Source of the DNA: Limnochorda sp. L945t
GTDB lineage: Bacteria; Bacillota; Limnochordia; Limnochordales; Geochordaceae
Direction: 5' to 3'
DNA: 64,000 nt
Assembly (NCBI RefSeq): GCF_035593305.1
Contig: NZ_CP141615.1
Coordinates: 2,945,722-3,009,721 of the forward strand
The first letter of the stretch is position 1. Every line of letters starts with the position of its first letter. The notes below the pieces were generated by a model, which searched no databases, had not been told where the DNA came from, and saw nothing but the letters and a program-made list of their open reading frames with translations. Below, piece by piece: positions 50,725 to 58,473 of this stretch. A program made the position numbers and the translations under genes.

Positions 50725-50784
50725 TGGCGGAGGGGGAGGGATTCGAACCCCCGGAGAGGCGTCAGCCCCTCAACGGTTTTCAAG
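50725..50784 (-). repeat. att site: displaced 3' half of tRNA-Ser(UGA)
   Basis: On the minus strand this segment begins at the anticodon loop (CTTGAAAACCG), continues through a variable arm and T-arm (GGGGGTTCGAATCCC) and ends in GCCA. No tRNA 5' half is next to it. Its first 20 bases (plus strand 50765-50784) are identical to 58422-58441 in the intact tRNA-Ser(UGA). It is thus the host's original 3' half, pushed away by the integrated element. Confidence 0.9.
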
Positions 50785-52417: not shown

Positions 52418-55009
52418 ATGACCGCAGCATCAAACGGAGCCGCTATCCAGAAAGCCGCTAAAGCCTACATTCGACTGGGCTGGCGGCCTATCCCCTATGA
52501 GGCCGGCACCAAAGGCCCCAAGACCAAAGGCTGGGCAAAGTGGAAGATCACCGAAAACGAGATAGCGGAGCGGTTCCATGAGGGCACGAACATCGGCATC
52601 GTGCTCGGCGCCGCCAGCAGAGGACTCGTGGACATTGACCTCGATTGCCCCGAAGCCGTCCAGGCCGCTCCACTCTTGTTACCGCCGACCGGTGCAAAGT
52701 TCGGGCAGGAGGGGAAGGAGCCCGGTCACTGGCTCTACCAGTGCCGTCCGGCGCCCAAAAACCAGCGGTTTCAAGACCCACGGGCCGAGAGTGAGAGCAC
52801 GATCCTCGAAGTCCGGGCCGAGGGACTACAGACGATGTTTCCGCCCTCCCTGCATCCGAACGGGCGCCGGATTGTGTGGGCCGAGCGAACGTCCGTCCCC
52901 GCCGTGGACAAGAGCGCCCTGGTGACCGCTGCATCCCGGCTGGCTGCGGCGGTGCTCCTGGGGCGCCATTGGGCGGCCCCCGGCGGTCGGCACCAGGCGA
53001 GTTTAGCCCTCGCCGGCGGGCTTTCGAGGCTGGGATGGGACCGCGATGCCATTATGGACTTTATGCGGGCCGTGTGCCTCATCGCCGGGGATGGCGAAGC
53101 CGACGACCGTCTTCGAGCCGTTACCAGCACGCTCGAACGGGATGATGGTGAGCCCACGATTGGATTTAAAACCCTGGCGGAGATCATCGATCCCGCTATC
53201 GTGTTCACGGCTGCCAAGTGGCTCGGATACCGGCAAACCGATGGGGGAAAAGGCAGGCCCGGCGGTTACGCTGTTTCCGACGGGTGCATTGTGAGAATAC
53301 GTCTTACCAAAGACGGGCCGGTTAACGATACGCTCGCCTTCTTCGAGGCTCGGATCGCTGAGGAGATCATCGAAGACGACGGCGCCGAGCGGGTGCGCCG
53401 ATGGGTGATGGAAGGCTCGACGCCCGATGGGCGGGCCTTGCCGCGGGCCGTCATCACGGCTGCGGAATACCCTTCCATGTCCTGGGTCTCAAGGGAATGG
53501 GGCACCCGAGCCGTCGTGGCGGCGGGCCAGGCCGCCAAAGATTCCCTGCGCGAGGCGATTCAACGGCTCTCCGGAGACGTGCCGGAGCGATATATTTACG
53601 CTCACACAGGCTGGCGGCAGATCGGCGGCCGGTGGGCCTTCCTGCACGCAGGCGGAGCCCTGGGAGCAGAAGGCGTGGAAGTGCGGCTCCCCGACCGCCT
53701 GGCCCGTTACGTACTGCCGACGCCGCCCGGCGATCTCGGCGAGACGCGTGAAGCGGTGCGAACGGCCCTTGACTTGACAAAGCTCTTCGACGATCGCCGG
53801 GTGGGTTTTGCGCTCCTGTCCGCCCTGGCCCGTGCGCCCTTGGCGGGGATGGTGCCCGCCACGGTCACGCTCTGGGTTTATGGCCCATCGGGGGCGTTTA
53901 AAACGACGACGACCACGCTGGGGCTGTCCCTCTACGGGCTCTTCACCGAGCACACGCCGCCGGAGTCGTGGCTTTCGACTGAAAATGCACTGGAACGCTC
54001 GCTCTGGACACTTGCCGACTTGCCTCTCGTGATTGACGACTTTGCGCCCGCGAATACTCGGGACGCCGAGCGAGTCCGCCAGACGGCCCAGGGGCTCTTG
54101 CGGCGCCTGGGCAACCACGTGGGGCGGAATCGACTGCGTTCCGACCTGTCGGCGGCCCCTTCCCGTCCCCCACGGGCGCTTGCGATCGTGACCGCCGAGG
54201 AATTGCCGAGTGGACGGCTCTCGGGCCTGGCTCGCCTGTTCCCGGTGCCGGTGGAGCGCGGGCAAGTCCATTTCGAGGTGCTGGGCCGCCTGCAAGGGCA
54301 ACGGCACGCCCTGAACCTTGCCGGCGCCGCCTACGTCGAGTGGCTTCGGCGGCTGCGGGATCACGACGACGCCCTCCCCCGGAAGCTTCTCGAACGGCAG
54401 GAGACGATCCGGAGCCAGGCCGCGGGGGGCGGACATCCCCGAGTGGCGGACAACGTGGCCGTGCTGGCCCTGGGCCTGGAGACGTGGGCCGACGTGGCGG
54501 TGGGCATAGGGGCCATACCCGAGGCCGAGGGGCGCAAGCTGGCCGAGGAGGGGTTGGCCGCCCTACTCGACCTGGCGGAGGAGCACCATCGGCTGCTCGA
54601 TTCCGAGGCACCCGAGCGACTACTGCTGGACGCCATCGGGGAGCTTGTGGCAAGCAATCGCGTGGCGATCGTCCGCCTGGGGCAGGGTGACGCCGGCGGG
54701 GTGCCCATCGTCGGGTGGTACGACACCACGCACCTTTACCTGCTCCCAGAGGTGGCGTACAAGGAGGCGGAGGCCCTGCTAGCACGAGGAAGAGGGCTCG
54801 CCGCCTCGCCGCAATCGATCTGGCGGGCGCTCGAAAAGCAGGGGGCGATTGTCCGGCAAAGCGAAGACCGGCTCACGTCAAAGCTCCCTGTGGCCCTGAT
54901 CGGCGGGGGCCGTCCGAGGGTGGTTCGGCTCTCCCGTGAGCGCCTGCGACATTTAGGCTTCACCCTGGGAGGCTTCGCCGGAACGGGCTCTCAGGGGGCG
55001 GGGTCGTGA
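52418..55009 (+). CDS. PrimPol-helicase replication protein
   Basis: 863 residues. Residues about 10-200 form a bifunctional primase/polymerase (PrimPol) domain: GWRPIPYEAGTKGPKTKGWA, the metal-binding DIDLD (Asp72/74/76) and later WLYQCRPAP. The middle and C-terminal part have a DUF927-type/helicase ATPase with Walker A GPSGAFKTTTTT (489-500) and an acidic Walker B-like LPLVIDDFAP. This architecture is the replication protein of many plasmids, phages and satellites. It would prime and unwind at the iteron region that begins about 110 bp downstream. Confidence 0.85.
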   Translation: MTAASNGAAIQKAAKAYIRLGWRPIPYEAGTKGPKTKGWAKWKITENEIAERFHEGTNIGIVLGAASRGLVDIDLDCPEAVQAAPLLLPPTGAKFGQEGKEPGHWLYQCRPAPKNQRFQDPRAESESTILEVRAEGLQTMFPPSLHPNGRRIVWAERTSVPAVDKSALVTAASRLAAAVLLGRHWAAPGGRHQASLALAGGLSRLGWDRDAIMDFMRAVCLIAGDGEADDRLRAVTSTLERDDGEPTIGFKTLAEIIDPAIVFTAAKWLGYRQTDGGKGRPGGYAVSDGCIVRIRLTKDGPVNDTLAFFEARIAEEIIEDDGAERVRRWVMEGSTPDGRALPRAVITAAEYPSMSWVSREWGTRAVVAAGQAAKDSLREAIQRLSGDVPERYIYAHTGWRQIGGRWAFLHAGGALGAEGVEVRLPDRLARYVLPTPPGDLGETREAVRTALDLTKLFDDRRVGFALLSALARAPLAGMVPATVTLWVYGPSGAFKTTTTTLGLSLYGLFTEHTPPESWLSTENALERSLWTLADLPLVIDDFAPANTRDAERVRQTAQGLLRRLGNHVGRNRLRSDLSAAPSRPPRALAIVTAEELPSGRLSGLARLFPVPVERGQVHFEVLGRLQGQRHALNLAGAAYVEWLRRLRDHDDALPRKLLERQETIRSQAAGGGHPRVADNVAVLALGLETWADVAVGIGAIPEAEGRKLAEEGLAALLDLAEEHHRLLDSEAPERLLLDAIGELVASNRVAIVRLGQGDAGGVPIVGWYDTTHLYLLPEVAYKEAEALLARGRGLAASPQSIWRALEKQGAIVRQSEDRLTSKLPVALIGGGRPRVVRLSRERLRHLGFTLGGFAGTGSQGAGS

Positions 55010-55072: not shown

Positions 55073-55548
55073 CGAGGAAAACCGCATCACGACGGGGTTT
55101 TCTGGCACACCCCCACAAACCCTAGGGGTCTCCTTCTTGCTACTTTCCGGGACAACCGGGACATACCCCTTGCAAACGGCGTCACGGCGGGGTTTGTTCA
55201 TGTCCCGGTTTGCCCAAAACACCGGGACATCACCGGGACATAACCGGGACATGGGAAGGAGATGGAAGGAACTGGGAGCCCCCCTTATGTCCCGGTTCTG
55301 TCCCGGTTATGTCCCGGTTTTTTGACCCAACCGGGACATCGATAAACGGCGTCACGACGGGGGTTTGAGGCACCATGTCCCGAATGTCCCGGAAAGTAGC
55401 AAGGGGGAGAGCCCTAGGGTTTTGCAGGGGGGTGGGGTGGTGATGCAAAAACGGGAGGGGGAGATCGCATATATACGCACTCGCCCGTATCGTTATGCAC
55501 CTCCTGCCGTGCATGGCGAAGGGGATCTCGATGCGAGGAAAACCGCAT
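55073..55548. repeat. direct repeats around the iteron region
   Basis: CGAGGAAAACCGCAT occurs perfectly at 55073-55087 and 55534-55548. The 19-mer AAAC(G/C)GC(G/A)TCACG(G/A)CGGGG occurs at 55079-55097, 55174-55192 and 55344-55362, all in the same direction. CTGCTAGCACGAG occurs at 54776-54788 and 55598-55610. Confidence 0.85.
55121..55418. other. symmetric iteron array, candidate replication origin of the element
   Basis: Twelve 9-mers of CCGGGACAT (or one-base variants) occur: six forward at 55147, 55156, 55222, 55233, 55244 and 55331, and six reversed at 55200, 55287, 55298, 55309, 55375 and 55384. Every forward copy has a mirror partner, start plus partner end always summing to 110539 (centre 55269/55270). 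The two inner triplets have an 11-bp period. The arms extend outward without gaps to 55121 and 55418 (23 of 26 outermost bases paired). No gene fits in 55010-55610, so this is the best origin candidate. Confidence 0.8.
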
Positions 55549-55610: not shown

Positions 55611-56126
55611 ATGAATAGTTTATACAATGCTCGACATAAACGCTTTACCCTGTGGCGGGAATTGCAGGAGCAGATCCAGGAAATCGACCCTAAAAAGCGA
55701 GGGGCGCTCATTCCTCTGTTCCAGGCACTCGGCGATCTGATGGTGACCCATCCCGACTTGCCCATTTCCGAGAAGGCAATCCGTGCCGCACTCCGCGATT
55801 ATCCGAAGGCCCAGTACGCCTTTTCGGAGCTTTTCGGCCTGCAAAAAGAACCGAGGACGCTCACTCCCGAGGTAGCCCTGACGGAGTTCTTGAAGCAGCA
55901 CACGGATCGGGGTGGGGTTAACTTCCAAGTAGACGCCAAAGAGCTTTACGGGCTATATTTACGCTGGTGCCAGAAACACCAGGCCCCCAGTTTCGCTTAC
56001 GCCCAATGGGCACGTACACTGCACCAGCTTATCCCGACCCTCCAACATAAGCGCCCGTGGGCACGGGGCACCCGACCCCTCGTGTACGTCGGCCTGCGGA
56101 TTCGACCGCTCCGGCGCAAGCTCTAG
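55611..56126 (+). CDS. protein with primase C-terminal-like (D5/P4) winged helix
   Basis: 171 residues. The C-terminal half, VALTEFLKQHTDRGGVNFQV followed by DAKELYGLYLRWCQKHQAP and then GLRIRPLRR, resembles the small winged-helix domain found at the end of P4/D5-type primases (ExLYxxYxxWCxxxG...GLR). Here it stands alone, right after the iteron array and behind the PrimPol gene. It could bind the iterons as an initiator. Similarity is by eye only. Confidence 0.5.
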   Translation: MNSLYNARHKRFTLWRELQEQIQEIDPKKRGALIPLFQALGDLMVTHPDLPISEKAIRAALRDYPKAQYAFSELFGLQKEPRTLTPEVALTEFLKQHTDRGGVNFQVDAKELYGLYLRWCQKHQAPSFAYAQWARTLHQLIPTLQHKRPWARGTRPLVYVGLRIRPLRRKL

Positions 56127-58382: not shown

Positions 58383-58473
58383 TGGCGGAGGGGGTGGGGT
58401 TTGAACCCACGGAGGGGCTAGGCCCCTCAACGGTTTTCAAGACCGCCTCTTTCGCCCGCTCAGACACCCCTCC
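58383..58473 (-). tRNA. tRNA-Ser(UGA)
   Basis: GGAGGGG pairs with CCCCTCC. Anticodon TGA lies at 58439-58437 in the loop CTTGAAA; there is a long variable arm, and the T-loop GGGTTCAAACCC and an encoded CCA (58385-58383). The 3' half differs from the displaced copy at 50725-50784, showing that the element supplied a replacement 3' half that keeps the tRNA functional. Confidence 0.95.

Follow-up and report, generated by a model that had tools for sequence, protein, structure and literature searches.

A 306-bp imperfect palindrome in Limnochorda sp. L945t is, on strong evidence, the origin at which a small, integrated mobile element initiates its replication. Its function is ordinary and its geometry striking, and it follows the plan that is already known from the PICIs. 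The joint explanation that best accounts for the observations, and which is very probably correct, is that of a PICI/SaPI-type origin, in which the C-terminal winged helix of the helicase reads the iteron CCGGGACAT, two hexamers assemble, and replication starts bidirectionally. The window referred to here is the whole stretch of 64,000 nucleotides that was analysed, and coordinates are window positions unless stated otherwise.

Geometry of the palindrome

Twelve 9-mers of the CCGGGACAT type, or its complement, are found within positions 55147–55392, of which nine are exact and three have a single mismatch, and their order is ++ - +++ / --- + --. The components of the region are as follows:

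55117–55422, no strand: candidate replication origin, 306-bp imperfect palindrome (from the sequence, inverted-repeat and iteron analysis)
55147–55164, +: left outer iteron pair (55147, CCGGGACAA; 55156, CCGGGACAT), 9-bp spacing
55200–55208, -: single inverted iteron of the left arm
55222–55252, +: left inner iteron triplet (55222, 55233, 55244), 11-bp spacing
55253–55286, no strand: central 34-bp spacer, purine-rich in its left part
55287–55317, -: right inner iteron triplet (55287, 55298, 55309)
55331–55339, +: single inverted iteron of the right arm
55375–55392, -: right outer iteron pair (55375, 55384)

Each of the twelve iterons pairs with a reversed partner, with no deviation from the mirror by even one base: all of the pairs give one coordinate sum, 110539, with the axis at 55269.5. 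The iterons are embedded in an inverted repeat (55117–55252 and 55287–55422), with arms of 136 nt each that are 79% complementary and are separated by 34 nt. Outside the iterons, 56 of the 82 arm columns match, with 27/30 in the outer 30 bp and 17/35 in the zone from the outer iteron pair to the single iteron. The central spacer is not mirror-symmetric (4/17).

The best inverted-repeat score is 63.5, compared with at most 13.0 among 60 dinucleotide shuffles, and the mirroring of all twelve iterons has a probability of approximately 0.001 when the observed gaps are permuted. This permutation was the null adopted for the mirroring, an orientation-only shuffle being a weak one, and the weight of the argument lies in the exact layout, rather than in the p-value. 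The palindrome also folds with a z-score of -14.6, a single strand being 64 kcal/mol more stable than the shuffle mean. The first-pass annotation had described twelve iterons in exact mirror symmetry, an 11-bp period in the inner triplets, and arms that reach past the iterons, all beyond chance, and each of these claims holds, with the inverted repeat being slightly wider than first stated. No Rfam family was found in a scan of the origin region, and the origin is present as a single copy in the host genome.

The integrated element and its probable initiator

The origin sits in an element of approximately 7.7 kb, integrated at a tRNA-Ser gene, with the following features:

50765–50784, +: 20-bp copy of the tRNA-Ser segment 58422–58441, the other attachment-site copy and other element end
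52418–55009, +: PrimPol (AEP) fused to a DUF927/Cch/SaPIbov1-Rep-like, MCM-type helicase, 863 aa
about 54704–54952, +: C-terminal winged helix of the PrimPol-helicase
55611–56126, +: 171-aa protein with an RFX/Pox_D5-type winged helix
56966–58249, +: tyrosine integrase, 46% identical to the integrase of the G001 element
58383–58473, -: tRNA-Ser(tga), the integration site and one element end

The palindrome begins 108 bp 3' of the PrimPol-helicase stop codon which, together with the attachment-site copies, confirms the location originally assigned to it, downstream of this gene in a mobile element. The gene of a 148-aa protein also lies downstream of the palindrome, before the integrase, and the host genome contains a single DUF927 gene. 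The element has the integrase, specific attachment site, and pri-rep-ori module of a PICI. Pfam and PHROGs scans of six element proteins recognised no phage packaging or interference genes and no divergent repressor, the small ORFs being without assignment.

An alignment of the helicase half with 50 relatives was used to obtain a structure model (pLDDT 93.6), for which the best PDB matches are SaPIbov1 Rep (8tch, Z 24.4) and SCCmec Cch (5dgk, Z 22.7), with the MCMs at approximately 15. In this predicted model, the helicase half has the MCM-like fold of the SaPIbov1 Rep/SCCmec Cch type, and it contains DUF927. Rep proteins of SaPIs are described as initiator helicases that load themselves, and Cch, a relative of SaPIbov1 Rep, likewise contains DUF927 (PMC7581432). 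The window protein shares the fold and DUF927 with both proteins, but is only 13–14% identical to them and is fused to a PrimPol, in a comparison that covered the helicases. The order of PrimPol and DUF927 helicase is also that of the PrimQH/All3500 fusions of mobile elements, in the description of which no iterons are mentioned (PMC5862659), whereas the origin is described in the present analysis. In Rhodococcus linear plasmids (e.g., NC_008270.1, 8817–9926), proteins annotated as telomere-binding match the DUF927-type helicase with 25–27% identity.

Comparison with known origins

The origin of the Escherichia coli island EcCICFT073 has been tested functionally (PMC6092414). Read from NC_004431.1, with positions counted after the primase stop, its TRTCTACC repeats lie at 15+, 24+, 72-, 92+, 103+, 112+, 145-, 156-, (176+, degenerate), 224-, and 233-, that is, in the order ++ - +++ / -- (+) --, in which four pairs mirror exactly and a fifth has a degenerate partner. 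Given this shared order, the window origin conforms to the plan of the PICIs. The EcCICFT073 and SaPI origins likewise lie 3' of the initiator gene and have about 12 short iterons, the mirrored order having been read directly for EcCICFT073, and the window shares with the PICI/SaPI type both the position of the iterons directly 3' of an initiator helicase gene and their arrangement in two opposed mirror sets. In SaPIs, the C-terminal domain of Rep binds the iterons that lie downstream of the Rep gene, and two hexamers appear to be involved (PMC7581432).

There are also differences. In the window, all twelve positions are exact, the initiator belongs to the DUF927 family rather than to D5_N/DUF5906/Pox_D5, as in EcCICFT073, and no packaging or regulatory genes were recognised in the element. 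An AT-rich melting region was not found between the iteron sets, the central spacer being 42% AT and the best 40-bp stretch 55% AT, and the window origin is thus PICI-like in organisation, rather than identical. A 2012 paper on SaPIbov1 reportedly also calls the iteron sets symmetric. The alpha protein of phage P4, which acts at ori-crr, is a primase-helicase with a C-terminal winged helix that binds iterons; its helicase family differs from that of the window.

Iterons often serve additionally as control sites, and one copy of a further repeat, D, lies outside the palindrome, which would be compatible with an operator, partition, or incompatibility site in place of an origin. This alternative is very unlikely, given that the site follows the initiator gene on its 3' side and that its layout matches that of a tested PICI origin (PMC6092414).

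Recurrence of the layout beside related helicases

Relatives were recovered through the alignment of the helicase half (74 genomic loci, plus 18 in viral contigs), and queries of the genome and viral contigs with the PrimPol alone returned no matches. About 83 loci, including the window, G001, and some near-duplicates, were scanned around the helicase stop codon. At least ten iterons were found beside the helicase gene in some 29 of these loci (10–14 each, with 12 the commonest count), compared with at most seven in coding-region controls. In about half of the DUF927-helicase loci surveyed, no clear array adjoins the gene, so that the mirror layout is common, rather than universal, in this family.

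The iteron sequences vary widely between loci, and the layout ++ - +++ / --- + -- recurs with unrelated iterons. L081/L082 and L129 have, like the window, the full order or its complement, and L119, L083, L133, and L145 have it almost in full. In L129 (TGGGACACT, --+---+++-++), all 12 iterons are mirrored within 1 bp, as are 10/12 in L119 (TGGCCGCAA), 14/15 in L084, 12/13 in L140, 10/13 in L088, and 10/11 in L145, whereas L081 (ACCGGTACA, ++-+++---+--) has kept the order, but not the exact spacing. Judging from these sequences, the plan recurs with differing repeats in similar elements of several bacterial phyla. The origins are either compact, with a centre of roughly 15–37 bp, or wide, with a centre of 79–112 bp that is mostly AT-richer than its surroundings, and neither type forms a single clade in the tree. 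In a hold-out of ten further loci, one has a clear mirrored array (L194) and two have weak or partial arrays (L184 and L193), the others having none or a weak one. Three archaeal contigs of Methanosaeta/Methanothrix (L117, L134, and L149) also encode a helicase of this type, next to which lie oriented iterons in arrays of the wide form.

These relatives bear on two further explanations. The stability of the folded strand would be expected of a cruciform or hairpin site, recognised by its extruded structure rather than by its sequence. However, in L140 and L145 the iterons are mirrored even though most of the spacer positions between them mismatch, and the spacing differs in L081, so that a long duplex stem is not the conserved feature and a cruciform, which is highly improbable, is not needed. 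Of the two roles first put forward, the origin stands, supported by its place 3' of the helicase, the SaPI-Rep-like fold, and the tested PICI layout, whereas the cruciform is not required; the symmetric spacing is kept in several relatives while the spacer sequence varies. It is extremely improbable that the region is a relic of an inverted duplication or a decayed transposon end, given that the same order of oriented iterons is found in distant elements with unrelated sequences, and that the main genes of the element are open. The match of 27/30 in the outer flanks is the point in favour of a relic, and an inverted duplication may have contributed to the arms.

Recognition of the iterons

The best evidence on the reader of the iterons comes from a natural exchange. 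The helicase of L119 (Desulfofundulus; L036 is the same locus) and that of L088 (Desulfovirgula) hardly differ up to the wing of the C-terminal winged helix, after which the last ~38 residues are identical at 13/39 positions. The DNA is 89% identical until the last ~38 helicase codons, and 83% identical again right after the origin. Between these homologous flanks, the C-terminus and the origin are unrelated, with iterons TGCGGCCA and CGGGTACC, respectively, both in mirror layouts. The swapped cassette is approximately 410 bp in length (L119, 4862–5284; L088, 4100–4506). As the C-terminus and the origin were exchanged together, the C-terminal winged helix of the helicase is the probable reader of the iterons, at a distance from the window, whose helicase is only ~33% identical to those of the swap pair. 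In the case of Cch2, the isolated C-terminal domain has been shown biochemically to bind its origin repeats (PMC7581432).

The iterons might alternatively be read by the stand-alone 171-aa RFX/Pox_D5-like protein, which would recruit the PrimPol-helicase to the origin. RFX and Pox_D5 winged helices bind DNA, the EcCICFT073 Rep has a C-terminal Pox_D5 domain, and the RFX-like gene comes next after the origin in the window element, as it does in that of G001. However, none of the fetched DUF927-helicase loci yielded the RFX-like protein in a profile search, and the relatives keep the same iteron layout in its absence which, together with the L119/L088 swap, makes the 171-aa protein an unlikely reader, contrary to its initial nomination as an iteron binder. 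No RHH protein is implicated in the origin. A two-sequence model of the 171-aa protein (pLDDT 56.7) was excluded from the analysis. Stand-alone bacterial proteins with this winged helix are found in the window (55611–56126) and L034 (4088–4675), and elsewhere the domain is mostly found inside long primase-like ORFs.

The G001 element shares its integrase (46%) and RFX-like protein with the window element, but has a helicase of another type (PrimPol plus RecA-like AAA_25) and different iterons (TGTAACC), while a D-like palindrome is kept. The D palindrome would thus appear to go with the RFX-like protein, and the iterons with the helicase.

The D and E elements

Two further kinds of element accompany the iterons:

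55079–55100, +: third D element, outside the palindrome
55174–55195, +: D element of the left arm
55344–55365, +: D element of the right arm, oriented as the left copy
55127–55140, +: left edge element E, a GAGGCTCTTATATC-like motif inside the outer flank that matches at 27/30
55399–55412, -: right edge element E, inverted

The D repeats (AAACSGCRTCAYGRCGGGGTTT; 55079, 55174, and 55344; expected number 0.00) are imperfect palindromes with the core CGTC-AC-GRCG (full sequence CGTCACGACG). The direct repeats reported in the arms are thus present, in three copies, but are not part of the mirror, because the two arm copies, at about mirror positions, both face the same way.

The E element was found de novo, with tight spacing and a log-likelihood of 70.6, compared with 39–43 in shuffles. 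In loci outside the training set, E pairs were found in 2/67 cases, compared with 2/149 controls, and E was not found at the EcCICFT073 origin, so that it is claimed only for the compact origins of the DUF927-helicase family, where the edge elements are candidates for the site of melting. Three copies of a palindromic octamer, TGCTAGCA, are present in the window element (54777, 55062, and 55599) and another three in the G001 element (L034; 4049, 4522, and 7005), where ~0.2 would be expected, and in both elements it is found immediately upstream of the RFX-like gene.

A model of initiation

In the preferred reading, the fused PrimPol-helicase would act as an MCM-like initiator that loads itself, in the manner of SaPIbov1 Rep and Cch, and would read CCGGGACAT through its C-terminal winged helix. 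Each six-iteron set would nucleate one hexamer, with the inner repeats, one helical turn apart, placing the binding domains on one face of the DNA. As the two sets are mirror images, the hexamers would face opposite ways, and may then melt the DNA between or beside them. With opposite polarities, they would send two forks away from each other, with priming by the fused PrimPol domain, and the layout fits such a bidirectional start. The 42% AT of the central spacer, the loci with no clear array (about half), and the iteron counts other than 12 all count against this reading.

Significance

What is new here is the exact mirror geometry outside the PICIs, together with the unit of exchange formed by the iterons and the helicase C-terminus. 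The layout is found in a PrimPol element in which no PICI genes were recognised apart from the modules for replication and integration, and layouts akin to it adjoin homologous helicases of several phyla and of archaeal contigs that are Methanothrix-like. It is possible, albeit doubtful as a joint claim, that a mirror code with six of its twelve iterons in each half serves generally as a platform on which a pair of opposed hexameric initiators is loaded. Helicase families with no relation to each other (MCM-like DUF927 and D5-type) would share this platform in mobile elements of bacteria, and perhaps of archaea, and an iteron sequence would be swapped as a cassette along with the final ~40 helicase residues. 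The 6+6 geometry and the exchange of C-terminus and origin offer a simple system for understanding how self-loading hexameric helicases acquire opposite orientations without a loader.
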